Positions 51,153 through 59,787 of a stretch of 64,000 nucleotides of DNA are shown in pieces. A program made the translations under genes and the position numbers. This DNA is from Acidimicrobiales bacterium (GTDB lineage Bacteria > Actinomycetota > Acidimicrobiia > Acidimicrobiales > Palsa-688): positions 1 to 64,000 of the forward strand of contig DASUWA010000045.1 of NCBI GenBank assembly GCA_036378675.1. The letters run 5' to 3'. The notes under the pieces were generated by a model. That model was not told the origin of the DNA. It saw only the letters and a list, made by a program, of their open reading frames with translations, and ran no database searches. Within the stretch, counting starts at the first letter, position 1; every line of letters starts with the position of its first letter.

Positions 51153-51698
51153 TGCATTGGTTGTTCGGCGGCGAGGACTTCACCTCCTGCCGGCGGCGCT
51201 GCGCTTCCACTCCCCTCCGACAACCCGCTGCGCAGGATCGAGGGAGAGATTGCGCGGACAGTAGGGCCGCACCGTCAGGTCATCAGACTGCCACGGTCGA
51301 CTTGCCGCGAGGGCAGCGTGCTTACGCGCTGAAAGCAAACCACACAGGGTGTGTCGACGGGCGAGCTGAATCCGGATCAACGCCGGCTCTGGTCGGCTGA
51401 CTGACGCTCCGGGGTCGTGATTATGCATTCGGTGCGTGAAGCCCACCGATGGCGACGCCTCGTGCCGCGGGATCGCCGGTTCGGATCGGGCTCGAGCCAG
51501 TAGCCAATTCGTGATTATGCGCTCGTCCGCGTCGACCCGAGGGCAGTCAGCGTGCATCTCGCGGGATCGCCAGTGGTAGACGGACCGAAGCCATCATGCC
51601 CCTCGGGTCAGTGGCATACTGCGCCCTAGGACCCCTAGGTGACGAGGACCCTTGGCCTGCCGTTCCGGCCGCATGGCTAAACATTGGGAATCGACTCC
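51153..51698. other. Intergenic region before the defence island
   Basis: About 545 bases with no supportable gene. It must contain the GH92 promoter and that of the DUF4062-STAND gene. The 11-base CGTGATTATGC occurs twice (near 51417 and 51510). I see no tRNA or att-like sequence that would mark an island boundary. Confidence 0.4.
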
Positions 51699-54014
51699 AT
51701 GAATGCGATTGTTCGTCGTAGGCCAACTGTGATGATTTCGTCGACGATCGGCGAATTGGCAGCCGAACGCGAAGCCATCAATTCGGCGCTGGATGGGCTG
51801 AGCCTTGCCGATGGCTGGCTTTTCGAATTCCACGCCACGGCAGCAGGAGAGACTGCCGAAGAGCACTACCTCGCTGTTGCAAGCAGTTGCGACCTCTACG
51901 TGGTGATCGTGGCTGGCCAAGGCTCGGAGGCTACGGAAGCGGAGTATCAAGCCGCCTACGCAGACACATCCCGGAAGATCTTGCCGTTCTTCGTGGGCGA
52001 GCCGACGAAGGACACCGAGTCATTTCGGTCGCTGATCGAGTCGAGGCATGTGCGCGTACATCGGGGGGACCACAGCGACCTCGCGAGCGCAGTTGTGAAC
52101 GCGATCGCTGCATCCGTTAGGTCAGGTGAAATCGTCCGTTCTGGGTTGCTCGAGGAATTGGATGAACTGCTCCGGCGACGAGAACGAGTTGTGCGAGAGG
52201 ACCTCCCGCTCGGATTCGTCCGATATCTTCATTCGGCAGCCGACCAGGCTGGCGAGCACCACTCGGTCGCGGCAACCAGCATTGCGGACTTAGAAGTAAA
52301 TGTAGTGCTCGAGGGGATCGGTGGGTCAGGCAAGACCTACACCGCTTTGGCAACTTTGAGGCGTCACAACGCGCACGGGCGCTTGCCGATCGTCATCGTG
52401 CCGACTCGGTCGTCTCTATCAGCAGAGGGCCTCATCCTCGGGGCATTTGAGAGCGTTCGCTTCTTTCCAGGGGAGGAGCTACTTCATCAGCTCGCTCGTG
52501 ATGGGCGAATCGCTGTCGTCGTCGATGGTATCGACGCGCTTGCATCCGATGACCGACGGATCTTCCTGGCCGATCTCGATCGCTTCTGCTCTCGATTTCC
52601 TCGCTGCCGTACAACCTGTTGCGTCCGCCGGGCGATGGCGAGCGAACTAGCTTCCTTCGCTCGCTACACACTTGCGGCCCTATCGGATGTACAGACGCAC
52701 GAGATGTTTCAAGCAGTCGGTGCTCCTGAGGTTCGACGTTTCCCCGAGCAGGTCTCTGATCTTGCCCGATGGCCGCTCTGGACGTGGGCCCTGCTCGAGG
52801 TCGGGCCCGTCGCATCAACGGGTTTGGTTCTCCTAGAGAAGTTGATAGAGCATCGAATCAAGATCTCCGGGTCGTATTCGCCTCTCGAACAGCGGATGCT
52901 TGTCCATGCGGGAGGGGCGCTCGCGTTCGCGGCCTGGCCGGAACCGAACCTGTCTAGCGACCAAGCCCTTGAAGCGTTGGTGCGGTGGGCTGCGAGTGAC
53001 TATGTCCTGGCCAGATACTCGCTGCCTTCCGCTGATGTCTTGATCCAAAGACTCAGCGAGGCCGGAGTTGTACAACTCACACCCAGTGTGTCATTCGCAC
53101 ATCCCCTCTTTGCCACCTATCTCGGGGCTCTTCACGCTTCACTCACTCGACAGGTAACGGACCTGATGTCAGCAGATCCAGAGTTCGCAGTCTTTGTAGC
53201 GGCGATGTCGGGCAATGATCGTCCTGAAGAAACCGCTCTGACGCTCCAACGTCACGGTGCTGTGGGCCAAGCGCGATATCTCCGGCTGGTTCCTCTGGAG
53301 AGCCGCACCCCCCAGGCGGATGATGTGGCGGTGTTCGGCCTAGCTCTTCAAACGTTGGACGGTAGGTCTGCGGAATGCATTGTCGCGGACGACTGGACTG
53401 CGTGGCGCTCTGCCGAAGTTCCTGGGGTCGGGTCGCCAACCGCGATCACGGAGTGGATGTCGGCTGGTGAGGTCAACTTCTTGCCGGGCAACGCCTTCGC
53501 CAGCCGATCTCCTCTCGTATTGGCAACGATTGAATCGCTCGCTCGCTACAAGCAGCTAGTGGCAGAGGTCCAACCCTTCGGGGACCGATTCGATCGGCTC
53601 TCCGAACGGGAACTCCTTCGCTTGAGGCGGATGCACCAAAGGCAGCGCGATGACCTCGTTCTAGAGGCAGTGCTGAACTGGCGGACCGACTGGCGTGACT
53701 TAGCTACGACTATGAAGCTTGCGGAACTGCCGGAAGCTGCGATCGGCGAAGGGGATCCCGTCGTGACCGTGTTCGAGACCTGGCCAGACCCAATGCTGAG
53801 CGTCGATTGGAATGGCCCGCCTCATGTGACCTGGGTGCAGGGTTCGCCAGATCCCCGCTCCGGGCGTTACGAACGACTGTCCACGTACCTCGATCCCGGT
53901 CGAAAGGCTCGGGTGTACCAAGATCTCATCCGGCTTGCCGAGCAAGCGCTTGGCTGTTCTTTCAGTTCCCAAGCCTGGAGCAGGCCTGAAACAGTCGCTT
54001 CATGGGCATGGTGA
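51699..54014 (+). CDS. DUF4062-STAND/NACHT-like NTPase, candidate antiphage sensor
   Basis: About 771 residues (numbering from TTG 51684; I prefer the ATG at 51699). Residues 14-100 are a DUF4062 domain (TVMISSTIGELAAEREAI, CDLYVVIVAGQ), a TIR/nucleoside-processing-related fold. A P-loop NTPase follows with Walker A GIGGSGKT (211-218) and Walker B VVVDGIDAL (278-286). The remaining 450 residues are helical and lack recognisable repeats. DUF4062 with a STAND ATPase is known from antiphage and stress-response modules. It overlaps the next gene by 13 bases, implying a two-gene system. Confidence 0.75.
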   Translation: MNAIVRRRPTVMISSTIGELAAEREAINSALDGLSLADGWLFEFHATAAGETAEEHYLAVASSCDLYVVIVAGQGSEATEAEYQAAYADTSRKILPFFVGEPTKDTESFRSLIESRHVRVHRGDHSDLASAVVNAIAASVRSGEIVRSGLLEELDELLRRRERVVREDLPLGFVRYLHSAADQAGEHHSVAATSIADLEVNVVLEGIGGSGKTYTALATLRRHNAHGRLPIVIVPTRSSLSAEGLILGAFESVRFFPGEELLHQLARDGRIAVVVDGIDALASDDRRIFLADLDRFCSRFPRCRTTCCVRRAMASELASFARYTLAALSDVQTHEMFQAVGAPEVRRFPEQVSDLARWPLWTWALLEVGPVASTGLVLLEKLIEHRIKISGSYSPLEQRMLVHAGGALAFAAWPEPNLSSDQALEALVRWAASDYVLARYSLPSADVLIQRLSEAGVVQLTPSVSFAHPLFATYLGALHASLTRQVTDLMSADPEFAVFVAAMSGNDRPEETALTLQRHGAVGQARYLRLVPLESRTPQADDVAVFGLALQTLDGRSAECIVADDWTAWRSAEVPGVGSPTAITEWMSAGEVNFLPGNAFASRSPLVLATIESLARYKQLVAEVQPFGDRFDRLSERELLRLRRMHQRQRDDLVLEAVLNWRTDWRDLATTMKLAELPEAAIGEGDPVVTVFETWPDPMLSVDWNGPPHVTWVQGSPDPRSGRYERLSTYLDPGRKARVYQDLIRLAEQALGCSFSSQAWSRPETVASWAW

Positions 54015-55015
54015 CACCGTTAGAGCAGGCGATCTGGGACAGCGCAGAAGAGCTCAACGAGAGCCGATTCGGCCAAATTCTGCGCAATCAGTTTCGGTCT
54101 GAGCCAGACCCGACGTTGCCAGCGCCAGGTCAGGCGTTACAGATGTGGCTCGTCTCGAGCGACCCCGCCATCCAGCGCACGCTGACGGCTGTAAGCGCAG
54201 AACACATGATGCGACCATCGCAAGGGTCCCCCGACTCACCGTGGCTCCAATGGACGCTCCTAGCCCGAAAAGCAGCTGCTCGAATGGCTGCAAAATGCTG
54301 GGCCGGCATCGACTCTCAAAGGCGATTGTTGCTCGTGGACGAGGACAATCTTCCTCCGCCGCTGAGTCGCCATTACATAACGGATCTCCGATCCGACGAG
54401 TCAGGCATGCACCTCAACTTTGAAGGTCTCAACGCTCCAGACCTGAAGCCCAAGTTGAGGCACATCTTTGAAGCTGCTCGGTCCACCCCCTCGTATGAGG
54501 GCGCGCTCAGAGCTGATACGGAACTTGGCCGTTCGAGAGCACTAACGCTTCGGTGGGCAGAGCTGGCCAGAGGAGCTCACGAACACCTCCGGTCTGGCCT
54601 CCAGGGTTCGACGGTGTCCGACGCGCGAGAGCGTGCGCTGACCTTCATCGATGGCCTTTACGCCGGCACTCCCGTGGAAGCGATCGCGACTGCCTTCCGG
54701 CAACACAATCGACTTGTCCACCGGATCTTGTGGTGCATTCTGGGGCTCGCGGAGAGCCACTTCGGTGGACCACTGGTCGAAGATACCGTCGGCACCCTTC
54801 GACTGAGGCCGGATAAGAACGGCATTCCAGTAATTCGGATCACCACGGCTCAGCCGGCAGTGGTGATGTCCCGTCCCACGCATCCGATCTGGCTCAAGAG
54901 CGGAACTCCTTTGGATGGCTTGTGGTTGATCGAGGGGTACACGATGAACCTCGGAGCCTTGAGCAATGATTTCTCCCTTACGCCACTTCGGTGGTTCGCC
55001 GAGTCTTGGCCGTAG
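54002..55015 (+). CDS. Unrecognised partner of the DUF4062-STAND protein
   Basis: 337 residues, soluble, mixed helix and strand: LEQAIWDSAEELNESRFGQIL, WTLLARKAAARMAAKCWAG, LTLRWAELARGAHEHLRSGL, IRITTAQPAVVMSRPTHP and SGTPLDGLWLIEGYTM. No catalytic motif or family recognised. The 13-base overlap with the NTPase gene means the two are translated together, so it is probably the effector or the cofactor of that sensor. The same frame stays open for 51 codons after its stop. Confidence 0.6.
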   Translation: MGMVTPLEQAIWDSAEELNESRFGQILRNQFRSEPDPTLPAPGQALQMWLVSSDPAIQRTLTAVSAEHMMRPSQGSPDSPWLQWTLLARKAAARMAAKCWAGIDSQRRLLLVDEDNLPPPLSRHYITDLRSDESGMHLNFEGLNAPDLKPKLRHIFEAARSTPSYEGALRADTELGRSRALTLRWAELARGAHEHLRSGLQGSTVSDARERALTFIDGLYAGTPVEAIATAFRQHNRLVHRILWCILGLAESHFGGPLVEDTVGTLRLRPDKNGIPVIRITTAQPAVVMSRPTHPIWLKSGTPLDGLWLIEGYTMNLGALSNDFSLTPLRWFAESWP

Positions 55016-55171
55016 CCACAGGAGAGCTGGCGGCTAGAGCTGAGCGACGCCTTGGCCGATGTAAGCGAAGATGTTTGTGATGGTGACGAGTTGGATCCGG
55101 CAATCCAGAACGTCCATGACGGCACGTTCGCCATTGGCTATGTCGCGGGGTGGCGGGTCATGTACTTCTAG
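55016..55171 (+). other. Open frame continuing after the partner gene's stop
   Basis: Directly after the TAG, in the same frame, 51 codons without stop read ESWRLELSDALADVSEDV, DGDELDPAIQNVHDGTF and AIGYVAGWRVMYF, which has protein-like composition. A TTG could start a short protein, or the stop arose recently within a longer gene, or this is a remnant of another gene. Not assigned. Confidence 0.35.
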
Positions 55172-55232
55172 CCCGTCTCACGCGAGCGCTGCCTGCAGCG
55201 AGCGCGAGCGTTCGACTCAGGAGCCGAACGGC

Positions 55233-55940
55233 TCAACCCGCGGGGCCGAGGAACTTGAGCATGGAATCGAGTTCGTCATCGTCGAGGCCGCGGTCCGTGG
55301 TCTCGAGCCATACCCGGCGAATCTCCTCCCGGTCACGTGACTCGATGGCCTTTCGCATGCGCAACGCTTCTGGGCGCGCTTGGGCGAACGCGTCGGCCAG
55401 AGGTTTCTCGTCCGAGAAGATCGCTGAGTAGAGTTCGAGGATCGCGCCAATGGTGTCGAGCGCACCGGTTGCCTCCGCTCCGGTTATCCGCTCATCGGGC
55501 GTGAGTGCGACCCCGTTCACGACATCGACATATAATCCCGCCTCCCGGCGCTGCTGCTCAAGGGCCGGTTTGAGCACACCTACGAACTGGGCCACGAGGT
55601 CGTGCGGAAGCCAGCTATACATGATCTGCGCGGCACGAGCGAGCTTGTCGGCGTGGCCGTAGAACGACCTCCAGAAATCCCTCCAGTAGGCGTCGCCAGC
55701 GTCGACATGACCAACTGCGCCGATGGCGATCTGGCACTTCCCGAACTCTTCACCCGCGAGGATCGCCATCGAGTAGGCGCTCGCGACGGACCCAGCTTCC
55801 GCTAATCGGCGAGCGTCGGCGAGCAACACCACGGCGTTGGCCAAACTGGCCTCTGCCACGTCCCCGAGCTGCTCAGGAGTCAGAGGACCACGTACCTTCG
55901 AACTCCTGCTGGGCACGAGCACATGGTTGCGTCTGGACAC
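55233..55940 (-). CDS. AbiV-family abortive infection protein
   Basis: 235 residues. ANAVVLLADARRLAEAGSVASAYSMAILAGEEFGKCQIA is the hallmark of AbiV/HEPN-like proteins: helical, with a long helix pair and an EExGK motif. FWRSFYGHADKLARA is the second conserved block. The C-terminal third is helical (EALRMRKAIESRDREEIRRVW). AbiV of Lactococcus stops phage growth by blocking translation. GTG start. It is transcribed opposite to the STAND pair and sits between it and the TIR gene. Confidence 0.8.
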   Translation of the reverse strand: MSRRNHVLVPSRSSKVRGPLTPEQLGDVAEASLANAVVLLADARRLAEAGSVASAYSMAILAGEEFGKCQIAIGAVGHVDAGDAYWRDFWRSFYGHADKLARAAQIMYSWLPHDLVAQFVGVLKPALEQQRREAGLYVDVVNGVALTPDERITGAEATGALDTIGAILELYSAIFSDEKPLADAFAQARPEALRMRKAIESRDREEIRRVWLETTDRGLDDDELDSMLKFLGPAG

Positions 55941-56114
55941 TCGTATGGCAAGCGGTTGCCCGCGTGCCGGCGATGGGCACAGTATGGGGACGGCCGCTTG
56001 ATCGTACGACGATCGACCCTGATGTCGACGCGGTCTACGAGGAGTCGGTGGAATGACCGCACGTAGTGCAACTGTCTACCCGGGATCGTCGCTTGCTCTC
56101 GCTATCCTTAAGAC

Positions 56115-56714
56115 GTGACCACAGGCCCCGGATTGCGGGTGTTCTTCAGCCACAGCAGTCGGGACGCCGAGTGGGTGAAGCGCGTGGCAGCACAGGCGGT
56201 TGCCGCCGGTGTAGAGGTCTATCTTGCTGAGCATGATGTCCAGGCCGGACGCCATCTGAGCGACAAGATCAGGGCGGAGATTCGGGCGTCTGATGCGATG
56301 ATCGTGTTGCTGTCCCCAAACAGTCTGGAGTCGGTCATCGTCCAGCAAGAGATCGGCGTGGCTCACCAAGCCGAGATGCTGGTCATCCCGATCCTGATGG
56401 AAGAGGTCGCCAGCAAGGACCTTGGGCTACTCAACGGTCGGGAATATGTACTGCTCAATCCTGCAGATCCACATGAAGGACTTGCGCGCATCTCTGTTGC
56501 GCTGATCCGGCTGATCGACAAGCAGCGTGAGCAGTTACAGGCTGAGGATATAGCCAGGCTTGAGCGGGAACGGCAGCAGCAGGCTGAGGCGCTGGCGAAG
56601 GCATACGCGCAAATGGAGGCTCAGCAGCGCAAGACTCAACAGGACATGCTCGTGGCCGGTGCTGTCTTACTGGTCATTGGCCTGATAATCATCGCTGGGC
56701 AGAGCGGATCCTAG
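56115..56714 (+). CDS. Membrane-anchored TIR-domain protein
   Basis: 199 residues. Residues 7-130 are a TIR domain (LRVFFSHSSRDAEWVKRV, MIVLLSPNSLESVIVQQEIGVA), with E79 of QQEIG the likely NADase glutamate. Residues 134-177 are a Gln/Glu/Arg-rich coiled coil, and 178-195 a single C-terminal membrane helix. TIR domains in bacteria cleave NAD or make signalling nucleotides during phage defence. A tail-anchored TIR without a sensor domain suggests an effector activated by clustering. No cyclase or Argonaute gene is adjacent. Confidence 0.82.
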   Translation: MTTGPGLRVFFSHSSRDAEWVKRVAAQAVAAGVEVYLAEHDVQAGRHLSDKIRAEIRASDAMIVLLSPNSLESVIVQQEIGVAHQAEMLVIPILMEEVASKDLGLLNGREYVLLNPADPHEGLARISVALIRLIDKQREQLQAEDIARLERERQQQAEALAKAYAQMEAQQRKTQQDMLVAGAVLLVIGLIIIAGQSGS

Positions 56715-56829
56715 AGTAGGGCTCACGCTGGGGTACTTGGGAGGGATCGTGAATATCGCCGGTCTGATCGCTTACGAACAAGCGGCGGCAACGTCTGGAT
56801 ACGCCAGAACGCGCGCCCGAGATAAGTTT

Positions 56830-56844
56830 CGTATGAGCCGCACT
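56830..56844 (+). repeat. Left inverted repeat of the DUF1670 unit
   Basis: CGTATGAGCCGCACT; partner at 58630-58644 (14 of 15 bases inverted). A small hairpin CCGCAC-TTC-GTGCGG (56838-56852) overlaps its inner end. Confidence 0.6.
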
Positions 56845-56867
56845 TCGTGCGGAGCGTTGTCTTGTAG

Positions 56868-56892
56868 GCCCGCCCTGGCGGGCGGGCGTTTT
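56868..56892 (+). terminator. Rho-independent terminator after the TIR gene
   Basis: A 7-bp GC stem (GCCCGCC / GGCGGGC) with a 6-base loop, followed by GTTTTC on the plus strand. It would end transcripts coming from the TIR gene, although it lies inside the DUF1670 unit's left repeat region. Confidence 0.6.
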
Positions 56893-56916
56893 CTATTGTG
56901 CTTGATGACAATGCCC

Positions 56917-56986
56917 GTCGTTGTAAAGGGCCTGCGCTTCGCTTCGGTCCCTTCGGAACGGCCTATCGGCCGCCCTTGACAACGAC
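56917..56986. repeat. Long folded inverted repeat near the unit's left end
   Basis: GTCGTTGTAAAGGGC (56917-56931) pairs with GCCCTTGACAACGAC (56972-56986), 14 of 15 bases, enclosing 40 bases that can form an inner hairpin (GGCC-TATC-GGCC). It lies 26 bases beyond the stop of the second DUF1670 gene, in its 3' untranslated region. It could be a terminator-like structure, a protein-binding site or a structured RNA. Confidence 0.6.
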
Positions 56987-57012
56987 TGAATAGTTGTTCC
57001 TCGAGATCGCGT

Positions 57013-57810
57013 TCAGCCATGGCGGACCAGCTGCCGGGATCGCTTCGAGCGCCTGAGCATGTTGTGCTCGCTGAGGATGTCGAGGTATTGGGACACCAGG
57101 TTGGCTGACATCCCGGTCAGCAGTGGCAGTTCTTCGATGGCGTGTTTGCCGGCGAGGAGCCGGACTCGCTCGAAGCCTTGGATGTAGCGGTCGACCGACG
57201 GTTTGGAATGGTAGGTGCGGCTGGCGATCTCGGGGGTGCTAAGCCCTTGCAGGTAGAGGCGCACGATGGTCGCTTTGTGGGTGGGCCAGCATCCCATGTC
57301 GGCCACATAACCTCGGATGGGCAGCATCTCACCGGCTTTGCGCAACCTTTTCACCGCGGCGGCCACGCCACCGTCGGTGTATCCGGTGACCAGTGACAGA
57401 TCAAGCTGGGACAGCACCCCTCCTTGTTTGTAGGCCTCATGAGCCAGACGGCGGACTCGCCGATCCCGTCGGGCCAGGGCGCCCATTCCTTCGCGGATGG
57501 CCTCGATGTCGTCTTGGGCCACCACGGTCAAGCGCACCGGGACCATCTCGGTGTTCGCCATCGTCCGGCCCTTGCGGGCCCGTTCGGTCGCGGCCGGGCA
57601 GTAGTAGACCAGCTGCCCAGGCTCGAGCTGATCGGCTGAGACGAAGTAGTTGCGGACCACGTTGCAGATGTCAGCCACGATCGCCTCGACCACCACCTCG
57701 CCCTTGTCGTAGCCGTACTCGTGCAAGAACTTGTAACGCAACAAGCTGGGCAGGGTCCGACGGGCCAGACGACGGTGCAAGATCTCCGCCCGAGGAGTCG
57801 GGTTGCTCAC
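57013..57810 (-). CDS. DUF1670-type protein, second of a pair
   Basis: 265 residues: LLRYKFLHEYGYDKGEVVVEAIVADICNVV and LEPGQLVYYCPAATERARKGRTMANTEMVPVRLTVV match the DUF1670 N-terminal half. The C-terminal half contains two helix-turn-helix-like segments (GGVLSQLDLSLVTGYTDGGVAAAVKRL and HKATIVRLYLQGLSTPEIASRTYHSKPSVDRYI). This is a predicted nucleic-acid-binding protein without a visible catalytic motif. Its GTG/ATG start overlaps the stop of the preceding gene by four bases. Function unknown; I cannot tell whether it is a regulator or a transposition protein. Confidence 0.7.
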   Translation of the reverse strand: MSNPTPRAEILHRRLARRTLPSLLRYKFLHEYGYDKGEVVVEAIVADICNVVRNYFVSADQLEPGQLVYYCPAATERARKGRTMANTEMVPVRLTVVAQDDIEAIREGMGALARRDRRVRRLAHEAYKQGGVLSQLDLSLVTGYTDGGVAAAVKRLRKAGEMLPIRGYVADMGCWPTHKATIVRLYLQGLSTPEIASRTYHSKPSVDRYIQGFERVRLLAGKHAIEELPLLTGMSANLVSQYLDILSEHNMLRRSKRSRQLVRHG

Positions 57811-58595
57811 CGCCGGCCCCCCTTTTTCGCTCTCACCGGATCCAACAGATCGTTCAACCGCGGCGCGGCCGGGAACTCACGTCGGGCTCGCTCATACAAG
57901 GCGATGTACTCGCTGATCAACGACGCCGACCGCCCCGTCGCCGCCCGGATCTCAGGGATCGACGCCCCCCTCGCGTACAGGGCCGCGATCTGACGGAAGT
58001 CGCCCAGATACCTTCGGATCGCGCCCTCCGAATGGCGGGTCTGCTGCTCAATATCGGTGAACTGCAACCCCCACAGATAAAGCTGCACCACCCGCGCCTT
58101 GTGCGACACCCCCGGGCCGATGTCACGGATCTGCCCTCTGGTCGGAACCGCCACCCCATCCGCCCGGGACTCCGCCAAATCCCTCTTCACCGTCGCTGTC
58201 GACGAACAAGTCAGAAACGCCAGATCCTCCACCGTCAACAACGCACCCTGAACCTGGGCCTGACGAGCCAGGCGAGCCAGCCGGCTCTGGCGCATCTCCG
58301 CCAAACCACGATCGCGCAACACCTGTTGATCCTCCGGCGCGGCCAACTCCAAAGCCACCTGCACCTTCCGGCAAGCCAAGATCGGCTTGCCCGCCGGCTC
58401 CTCCGACGCCACCGCCAGATAACACAACTCCCCAGGACGCAACGCCACACGGCCAAAGTCCGCGAAGTAGCGCGCCATCTGCTCGTAATGAGCACAAGCC
58501 AACACCGGCGTCATATTGAAGTCCTCGCAAATGCGAGCAACGATCGCCGACTCAGCGTCCTTAGCCGCCAGTCGAGCCGTCCCGTAGGCATCCAT
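57807..58595 (-). CDS. DUF1670-type protein, first of a pair
   Basis: 262 residues, paralogous to the next gene: LRPGELCYLAVASEEPAGKPILACRKVQVALEL, then GALLTVEDLAFLTCSSTATVKRDL, the family motif VPTRGQIRDIGPGVSHKARVVQLYLWGLQ and TRHSEGAIRRYLGDFRQIAALYARG with HTH-like segments. The DIGPGVSHK block is intact here but reads MGCWPTHK in the second copy, so the two have diverged. It starts 34 bases inside the right inverted repeat. Likely acts as a heterodimer with its partner. Confidence 0.72.
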   Translation of the reverse strand: MDAYGTARLAAKDAESAIVARICEDFNMTPVLACAHYEQMARYFADFGRVALRPGELCYLAVASEEPAGKPILACRKVQVALELAAPEDQQVLRDRGLAEMRQSRLARLARQAQVQGALLTVEDLAFLTCSSTATVKRDLAESRADGVAVPTRGQIRDIGPGVSHKARVVQLYLWGLQFTDIEQQTRHSEGAIRRYLGDFRQIAALYARGASIPEIRAATGRSASLISEYIALYERARREFPAAPRLNDLLDPVRAKKGGRR

Positions 58596-58629
58596 GACCC
58601 ACCTCCGAGGTCAAATCACCGCCCACGAC

Positions 58630-58644
58630 AGTACGGCTCATACG
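58630..58644 (-). repeat. Right inverted repeat of the DUF1670 unit
   Basis: Plus-strand AGTACGGCTCATACG, the reverse complement of the left repeat except for one base. It lies upstream of the first DUF1670 gene and may overlap its promoter. Confidence 0.6.
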
Positions 58645-58768
58645 ATCCCAGAGGAGAATCCAGGTAGACCCGCGATCGGAGGCGCCCATATCGGCTCGTC
58701 CAGGTCGCTTCTTCTCCAGGTTCCTCAGGTGGGCTAAACGTAGCCGGATATCTGTAGGGTCTCCTACG

Positions 58769-59497
58769 TCATTCCTCAATCCTGATCGGTGTGATCCGCC
58801 GGAGCGCGTTCGCGTTGACGCCTTCGTCGTAGTGGACGGCGCGCGACGAACGGTGGTCACAGAATTCCGCTAACCCGCGGTACGGCGGCCAGTCGGCAAT
58901 CTCTTCGGGCGTGTATGTAGCGCGCCACTGTACGACGTTGAAGAAGCTCTCATCTCGTTCCACGATAAGGATGCCCTCATCAAGTCGAAAAAGCGGATCC
59001 AAGTCTGTACGCACAGCGTCCAGGACATAGTTGGCTGCCCGCGTCAGCTCGAACGTGAGGTCATGAATGAGCAGCACAATCCAGTCGAATTGACCGACGA
59101 GCTCGTCGTATGCCGACTGCTCGTGCCACTGGTGCTTATAGAACGTATCGATCATCAGGTCGTCGGGCCCGAAGGCTACAAATATTCGATCAACCACCGA
59201 ATTGAGATCGTTTGCCACCAGGCGGAAATTCTGCAGTGCTCTTTCAAGATTCCGCTTAGCTCCGGGCCATACACGTCGAAGGAGCCACTCATGAAGCCCG
59301 CGAAGTCGCCGAAGGTCATCTCGAGCGATCTGTGGTCGTGGAGCTAGTACCCAGGACGTCCAGGCTGACCACGCATCAAGATTCGCCCGCGCAACCCATT
59401 CGTCAACGATCACTGCGTACTGGAGTTCTGCCTCCATATCGGTCCTAACACCCGGATCCAAGGACTCGCGAACCCAGTCGTTATGACCTTCTCGCAT
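58769..59497 (-). pseudogene. C-terminal part of a frameshifted HNH protein
   Basis: 242 residues beginning MREGHNDWVRESLDPGVRTDMEAELQYAVIVDEWV. In intact members of the HNH family that matches the adjacent gene, the domain is followed by an xMKxEHExWVxESL-like helix, which is what this frame gives, so it is the continuation of that gene in another frame (the frame reads RSLKSMREG just before the ATG). The rest is helical with WIVLLIHDLTFELTRAANYVL. It might be made as a separate protein from its own ATG five bases after the HNH stop. Confidence 0.6.
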
Positions 59498-59502
59498 CGA
59501 CT

Positions 59503-59787
59503 TTAGGGATCGACAGTAAAGGTCACCGTGTCCTCATCGATCACCTTATGGTGGTCAGCACAGAGGAGGATCAGGTTGTCGTACTCGTCCCGTTGGTCCA
59601 GCGGAAGGGGGTTGTCACCTCGCGGTCCATCCGGCTTGCGCGAGACGATGTGACACTCGTTGCCGACAGTGGTGGAGCGCGACGTCAGCGTGACTTCGAG
59701 GACGAGCTCTCGTTTGCACTCCGAGTAAGCGCAACGATTCCCCGAACGGCCCCACAGGAGTTTTCGCGTCTGGACGCTGATGCTCAA
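59503..59787 (-). CDS. HNH-endonuclease domain, prematurely ended by a frameshift
   Basis: 94 residues: KLLWGRSGNRCAYSECKREL (CxxxC-type zinc Cys), ECHIVSRKPDGPRGDNPL (HNH first His) and YDNLILLCADHHKVID (LCxxHH). This is the complete HNH nuclease core of a group common in defence islands, normally part of a 250-350-residue protein. The frame stops at TVDP, just before the expected C-terminal region that lies in another frame at 58769-59497. A one-base indel (or sequencing error, or programmed shift) explains it. Confidence 0.75.
   Translation of the reverse strand: MSISVQTRKLLWGRSGNRCAYSECKRELVLEVTLTSRSTTVGNECHIVSRKPDGPRGDNPLPLDQRDEYDNLILLCADHHKVIDEDTVTFTVDP

Follow-up and report, generated by a model that had tools for sequence, protein, structure and literature searches.

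Background

Insertion sequences of the IS110 and IS1111 groups encode a DEDD transposase together with a guide RNA, while the archaeal ISA1214, of the ISNCY group, is a two-gene insertion sequence of approximately 1.2 kb with an unclassified transposase. Elements of the ISAjo2 type are reported to insert in one orientation beside a specific site (PMC10132070). The locus described here lies in a 64,000-nucleotide stretch of an Acidimicrobiales genome (the whole stretch analysed, hereafter the window) and contains two genes, A and B, whose products are members of the Pfam family DUF1670 (PF07900), a family recorded as being of unknown function and here tied to a mobile element. Our main reading, to which we assign a probability of about 0.78, is that this locus is an insertion sequence of approximately 1.8 kb, belonging to a widespread DUF1670 A/B family in which A and B together form the transposase. 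No paper using the name 'DUF1670' as a whole word was found in the literature searched, nor was a description of such an element found by title or by the start of the abstract, while ISfinder was outside this comparison and may hold an unpublished entry. Because no earlier description was found, we class the DUF1670 A/B elements as insertion sequences that form a new family of their own.

Results

Two DUF1670 paralogues between inverted repeats

The genes and repeats of the window locus are as follows.

57807-58595, minus strand: gene A, upstream DUF1670 protein of 262 aa (Pfam DUF1670, 169.8 bits, E = 7.4e-50, cut-off 25)
57013-57810, minus strand: gene B, downstream DUF1670 protein of 265 aa (Pfam DUF1670, 193.1 bits, E = 5.6e-57, cut-off 25)
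58630-58645, minus strand: inverted repeat at the upstream (A) end, core read TCGTATGAGCCGTACT; genome G101 has the same first 15 bases
56829-56844, plus strand: inverted repeat at the downstream (B) end, core read TCGTATGAGCCGCACT; counterparts in G101 (3 mismatches to the upstream core) and in locus L045

The initial annotation had described two overlapping DUF1670-type genes, and this description holds: the order on the minus strand is A then B, the reading frames overlap by 4 bp, and the two full-length proteins are paralogues over nearly their whole length (hhalign 100%, E = 1.2e-49, 29% identity). The DUF1670 profile is covered from positions 3 to 220 in B and 17 to 220 in A, with both above the curated cut-off, and the open reading frame list gives A and B as the only genes between the repeats. 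These repeats, first reported as 15 bp long with 14/15 matches, are real and match at 15/16 positions. When the two 300-nt flanks were resampled 5000 times with a Markov model, a match this good arose 6 times, corresponding to p ~0.001 for the repeat taken alone; it is accepted as genuine because the same repeat is found in the same place in two related copies.

Relatives of the window pair in the Actinomycetota

DUF1670 is sporadic among the close relatives, as only two of 61 genomes were above the cut-off, these being the genome of the window itself and G016. The G016 copy (L002:1309-2709, G016:C75) consists of a truncated gene A with the left end kept, which runs in frame into unrelated sequence, as if a DUF1670 element had itself been hit by a second insertion. 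In a sample of the phylum, 17 of 396 genomes were above the cut-off, six of them (G104, G235, G346, G360, G387 and G396) only in frames of 1265-1600 aa; the large frames of G387 and G396, the two which were scanned, are regulators. In a sample of 395 genomes of the class, full-length A was found only in the genome of the window, and of the other 11 with E <= 1e-10, G775 has a fragment and G657 a 31% match, while the remaining nine matches are in frames of 962-1387 aa.

The closest pair is that of G101 (L033, G101:C47), from the same phylum and another class, with protein identities to the window pair of 82% for A and 63% for B, and a DNA identity of 72%. Its upstream end has the same 15 bases as that of the window and its downstream end 12/15, and a third copy, L045 from an Acidimicrobiaceae genome, has both ends present with gene A broken. 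The search of related genomes proposed in the initial annotation thus recovered the pair with the same repeats in G101 and L045, in both cases in different surroundings.

A family with its own end repeats in several phyla

Genome contigs were scanned once with an alignment of five A proteins, which gave 36 loci from hosts including the Poribacteria, Gemmatimonadota, KSB1, Verrucomicrobia, Saprospiraceae, Cloacimonadota, Atribacteria, Phycisphaerae, Halobacteroidaceae and Hakubella. An A-type frame is followed by a B-type frame in 29/36 loci; the remaining seven are L067 and L070-L072 with A only (L070-L072 stop at a contig end), L074 with three DUF1670 frames, L079 with a fragment and L080 without a frame. 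The end repeat is GTATCA(A/T)(A/T)TGACC or close to it in Poribacteria, Gemmatimonadota, KSB1 and Saprospiraceae, CATATGCCCCCAGGTCT in Atribacteria, TCA(T/A)(G/T)TGACCCCAGG in G152, TG(T/C)CATATGGC in L034 and L035, and TTGACAATTG(T/G)CA in Phycisphaerae. These can be read as sharing a core, TCAnnTGA(CCC), common to the end repeats of most of the distant A-B pairs, which the actinobacterial end TCG(T/A)ATGAGCC only resembles, and across several phyla the end repeats vary together with the protein group. In a blind test of 19 loci, using the best 15-mer and 1000 resamples each, the best match was the end repeat, at p <= 0.012, in nine, and another repeat, also significant, in two (L068 and L078); it was non-significant in the other eight, in four of which (L033, L034, L038 and L049) it was still the end repeat.

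A more distant group, formed by L037 (G184:C4), L036 and L074 (Hakubella) and L073 (Halobacteroidaceae), has longer A and B proteins (up to 520 aa) in units of approximately 3 kb with different inverted repeats. DUF1670 matches were also present in the control genome of Methanosarcina acetivorans, and the family therefore extends to archaea. With regard to plasmid or phage origin, there was no match in tblastn searches of plasmids with B and a Poribacteria A or of phages with A, and a scan of viral contigs with B gave no relative.

Copies and empty sites in the Poribacteria

The Poribacteria units are 1.9-2.0 kb long, and copies within one genome have approximately 2.0 kb in common before diverging abruptly on the left. 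Their left end, TAGTTTGTATCAAATGACC, has 24 exact occurrences in 8 genomes (8, 6, 3, 3, 1, 1, 1 and 1), versus none for the reversed control in the same search. Gene A comes next in 22 of these (contig ends truncate three, and in one A is split in two), and the other two are one derivative (L128) and one solo left end. The derivative, at approximately 2927-3416 of L128 (G456:C55), is about 490 bp long and lacks the A and B genes, with both ends retained (approximately 125 and 100 bp); it is a MITE-like form that arose by deletion, and sits at the same kind of target as the full copies.

Orthologous empty sites were sought for the L063 copy in 38 genomes of its genus, all of which matched some part of the query, and the site was uninterrupted in all eight aligned loci (L108-L111, L113, L118, L121 and L122, with L108 and L109 alike). 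The empty site reads CTAC-TT-CCGAATC or variants thereof, versus CTAC-TT-ATAG[element]CTAT-TT-CCGAATC when occupied, and because of this comparison the Poribacteria element is taken to span ATAG to CTAT with TT duplicated. A 4-bp duplication (TTTA), which L061 alone permitted, and the absence of any duplication, which a stop-codon reading of the other copies permitted, were both rejected since the empty sites fix the duplication at TT. TT is present on both sides in 19/19 complete Poribacteria copies, i.e. 17 survey loci plus L128 and L129; the cut loci L070-L072, the fragment L080 and the right end of L088 were outside this count.

We regard the mobility of the DUF1670 A-B family as virtually certain. 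Its members have the features of insertion sequences: genes for their own mobility only, shared terminal inverted repeats, copies at different sites and, in the Poribacteria, a target duplication of fixed length. The initial annotation had weighed a mobile element against ordinary genes with a chance repeat or an operator. An ordinary operon of two DNA-binding regulators would suit the regulator-like helix-turn-helix domains of A and B, the p of ~0.001 for the window repeat by itself and the non-significant result of the inverted-repeat test in 8/19 loci, but it is contradicted by the same ends in unrelated contexts, by multi-copy Poribacteria units with sharp borders and uninterrupted orthologous sites, and by a derivative with both ends and no genes, making this the least likely of the readings, with hardly any probability left to it. 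The mobile-element reading has been borne out, since pairs of the same type with their ends occur in different contexts and, in the Poribacteria, in several copies per genome, with empty sites and a 2-bp duplication.

A target at the last codons of a gene

Once the element is taken out together with one TT, the reading frame again terminates in K-stop in 15/19 Poribacteria copies. L056, L066 and L128 are at a gene end of this type with no stop immediately following, and the insertion of L061 is in another gene, in a repeat region. Hence 18/19 copies are at the last codons of a gene ending like RKMLIxK (variants QRMVIRK, RQMVILK and RKMLMLK), and in these 18 the orientation is fixed, with the same element end facing the gene. 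The end of the target protein is kept intact because the element supplies AAA-TAG. Two of three target genes passed the NCBIfam cut-off of 23 for the T9SS type A sorting domain (36.3 and 30.7 bits), the target gene of L064 scored below it (17.1), and that of L053 was below the Pfam cut-off for the T9SS sorting domain (21.5 vs 27). A similar target, RMVLMK, can be read from the sequence next to the Gemmatimonadota copy, and another, KMLLLK, next to the Saprospiraceae copy; no T9SS-type target was seen in the sequences flanking the KSB1 copies. The target arm TT-N4-ATCAACAT resembles the right end of the element read inwards, AA-ATAG-TATCAAATGACC, and this resemblance may be what causes the insertion specificity.

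Ends and flanks of the window element

The measured Poribacteria ends allow the window element to be delimited as follows.

56822-58654, minus strand: whole element, 1833 bp, its ends assigned by analogy to those measured in the Poribacteria and by the extra end sequence common to related copies
58655-58656, no strand: AG, proposed 2-bp target duplication on the A side, suggested by the sequence
56820-56821, no strand: AG, proposed 2-bp target duplication on the B side, suggested by the sequence
56915-56995, minus strand: hairpin in the segment from B to the B-side end (z -3.5 for the DNA fold)

Four actinobacterial left ends (window, L033, L045 and G016) share CTCT(G/C)GG(A/G)TC outside the repeat noted earlier, and the window element is therefore taken to end further out than was first placed. 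At the offsets derived from the Poribacteria, the flanks of the window (AG/AG) and L045 (TT/TT) fit the 2-bp rule, whereas the unequal dinucleotides of L033 (GT and AT), a copy with a short A-side flank, do not. By analogy, AG/AG may be the 2-bp target duplication of the window copy, an indication which by itself is weak given the 1 in 16 chance of such a match. The initial annotation had counted a missing target-site duplication against mobility; this objection no longer stands, because the duplication is 2 bp and the ends used then were 7-9 bp too far inside. The comparison with empty sites which it had proposed succeeded for the Poribacteria, where copies in several contexts are accompanied by an interruption-free site, and not for the window copy, for which no empty site was present in 32 genomes of its family, with only its own flanks matched. 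The window copy is very probably a mobile element of this family.

The hairpin after B was considered as an essential part of the element and ruled out as such, since L045 has no space for it. A further hairpin, strong and terminator-like, with a T run for plus-strand transcripts, is present just inside the B-side end at 56868-56887, and could block read-through into the element from the neighbouring TIR gene.

The very precise target, the approximately 230 nt of non-coding sequence that follow B in the Poribacteria and the strong hairpin of the window copy would all be compatible with a target choice guided by an RNA of the non-coding segment, on the model of IS110-type elements. However, the segment after B is just 50-65 nt or so in L047 and L045, the window element gave no Rfam match at the gathering threshold, the inverted repeats are at the very ends of the element, and the Poribacteria target resembles those ends, so that recognition by protein suffices; we consider guidance by RNA very unlikely.

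The A and B proteins

Among six chosen Poribacteria copies, dN/dS was 0.06-0.11 for A and 0.06-0.13 for B (15 comparisons each), and both proteins are taken to be needed because both are under purifying selection (dN/dS ~0.1). The initial annotation had remarked that no known transposase is present, and none was matched in Pfam, NCBIfam and PHROGs scans; together with fold searches of the PDB, made with models of pTM 0.46-0.48, these revealed no known transposase or nuclease domain in either protein. When 22 A and 20 B members were scanned with Pfam, all matched DUF1670 and beyond that chiefly helix-turn-helix families, with a few weak matches outside these to Terminase_5, HSDR_N_2 and pRN1_helical. 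The predicted structures (mean pLDDT 82.6 for A and 79.1 for B; pTM 0.48 and 0.46, respectively) consist of N-terminal helices, a beta hairpin, a winged helix and more helix-turn-helix units.

Structure prediction had been suggested as a way to find a nuclease or recombinase fold, and none was recognised in A or B, which is not proof of absence. Foldseek gave no match at E <= 0.001 with either model, and the best VIA-align matches were TrpR (Z 6.5, 62 residues, 3.1 Å) and Z-alpha (Z 5.8, 60 residues, 2.5 Å); in these models, the matches to TrpR, DtxR, MarR and Z-alpha indicate helix-turn-helix domains and nothing more. A match of residues 9-51 of A to an HU-like fold (Z 5.2, 41 residues, 2.6 Å) was dropped as too weak, the resolvase matches (Z 4.9-5.0) were discounted as covering the helix-turn-helix part alone, and a Foldseek match of B to IstA (E = 0.56, rmsd 19.5) was discounted as meaningless.

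Invariant residues include E66, P67, K70, D124, R153, D158, H165 and H188 in the A alignment, and D137, R166, D171, T177, H178, K179 and H201 in that of B. A loop of the form RG-x(3,4)-D-x(6)-H-(K/R) is common to both proteins and lies beside or within segments with pLDDT <50 (A 156-162, B 168-176); in wider alignments it is absent from the degenerate L044, and its R is replaced in the B protein of L037. A counterpart of A residues 53-156 forms the C-terminal tail in frames of 1265-1473 aa, three of which were aligned:

L156:4452-8246, minus strand: large frame with a tail like A 53-156
L157:931-4857, plus strand: large frame with a tail like A 53-156
L158:921-5339, plus strand: large frame with a tail like A 53-156

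These frames keep P67, G69 and the winged helix and end before the loop, and the two which were scanned have BTAD, AAA and TPR domains; because of these domains, the module of hairpin and winged helix is taken to be common to the mobile element and host regulators. Large regulators bearing part of the DUF1670 profile are not mobile-element genes. On this reading of the sequences, the middle module of A would bind DNA, and the speciality of the mobile proteins would be the loop and the last third.

It is highly probable that A and B recognise the ends of the element and the target. They might do only this, with a host recombinase or a transposase encoded elsewhere cutting and joining the DNA. 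Such borrowing is favoured by three observations: in Pfam only helix-turn-helix and DUF1670 matches had any strength among the 22 A and 20 B members, Foldseek gave no match at E <= 0.001, and large regulators carry the middle module of A as a tail, suggestive of a plain DNA-binding function. Conversely, from phylum to phylum A and B are accompanied by the ends, which differ according to the protein group, and the units have no other constant gene, so that a specific host partner would be required in all hosts; we consider a borrowed enzyme the less likely reading, albeit the strongest of the alternatives. That A and B also carry the chemistry themselves is the reading we prefer, at slightly better than even odds.

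Neighbourhood of the window element

The element is surrounded by the following genes.

51684-54014: DUF4062 protein gene, in the defence-like neighbourhood
55233-55940: AbiV-type gene, left of the element, beyond the TIR gene
56115-56714: TIR-domain gene, left of the element
58769-59497: gene without a Pfam family, right of the element
59503-59787: HNH gene, right of the element, after the gene without a Pfam family

The initial annotation had placed the boundary between two defence-type genes, which holds only in part: the TIR gene is on the left, with AbiV beyond, and on the right the gene without a Pfam family comes before HNH. Its suggestion of a defence role for the A/B pair is not supported, as neither protein matched a defence family in PADLOC up to E = 1, and the window element is a sporadic arrival in a neighbourhood of defence genes (51684-59787). 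Past the downstream end of the G101 copy, the flank at L033:4957-5241 (minus strand) codes for a partial SAVED domain (59.4 bits against a cut-off of 26.2); no homologue of the L033 flank gene spanning the junction was found, with matches starting downstream of the junction. With this CBASS-type gene part adjoining the L033 copy, 2/2 examined actinobacterial contexts are near defence-type genes.

Discussion

In the mechanism which we propose, A and B would act together as a transposase complex, with their winged-helix and helix-turn-helix domains binding the TCAnnTGA-like core of both ends. The same domains would bind a target resembling this core, which in the Poribacteria would be the TT-N4 arm described above, corresponding to the RKMLIxK codons read backwards, and the two proteins would bring ends and target together for the element to be joined across 2 bp. 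The least certain step, although the favoured one, is that A and B carry the chemistry, for which the best candidate site would be the poorly modelled loop RG-x(3,4)-D-x(6)-H-(K/R). More tentatively, and at somewhat less than even odds, the DUF1670 pairs could represent a new class of recombinase, consisting of two paralogues made up almost entirely of helix-turn-helix units with the active site in this loop, TCAnnTGA-type ends paired with an end-like target, 2-bp joining, and each group reading its own target by protein contacts.

A Pfam family of unknown function hereby gains a role, as DUF1670 pairs are mobile-element machinery across several phyla, and if A and B do carry the chemistry, they would make up a recombinase in which no catalytic fold is recognised. 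Insertion is nearly exclusive to one codon position of T9SS-type genes and leaves the protein end intact, and so amounts to a natural, harmless and site-specific integration by a two-gene unit of 2 kb.

Compared with known systems, ISA1214 is like the DUF1670 element in having two genes, and at approximately 1.2 kb it is too short for A and B (1.58 kb). The IS110 and IS1111 elements, the subject of PMC11187229 and PMC11208160, share a specific choice of target with the DUF1670 element, whereas domain scans, and Rfam on the window element, gave no sign of a DEDD transposase or guide RNA of their kind. The IS1202/ISAjo2 family (PMC10132070) is similar in consisting of small elements with mobility genes only, inverted repeats and a short target duplication. 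However, ISAjo2 as portrayed there relies on a single large DDE-domain transposase and duplicates 5 bp, while the DUF1670 element has two small paralogues rich in helix-turn-helix units, in which no catalytic domain is recognised, and duplicates 2 bp.
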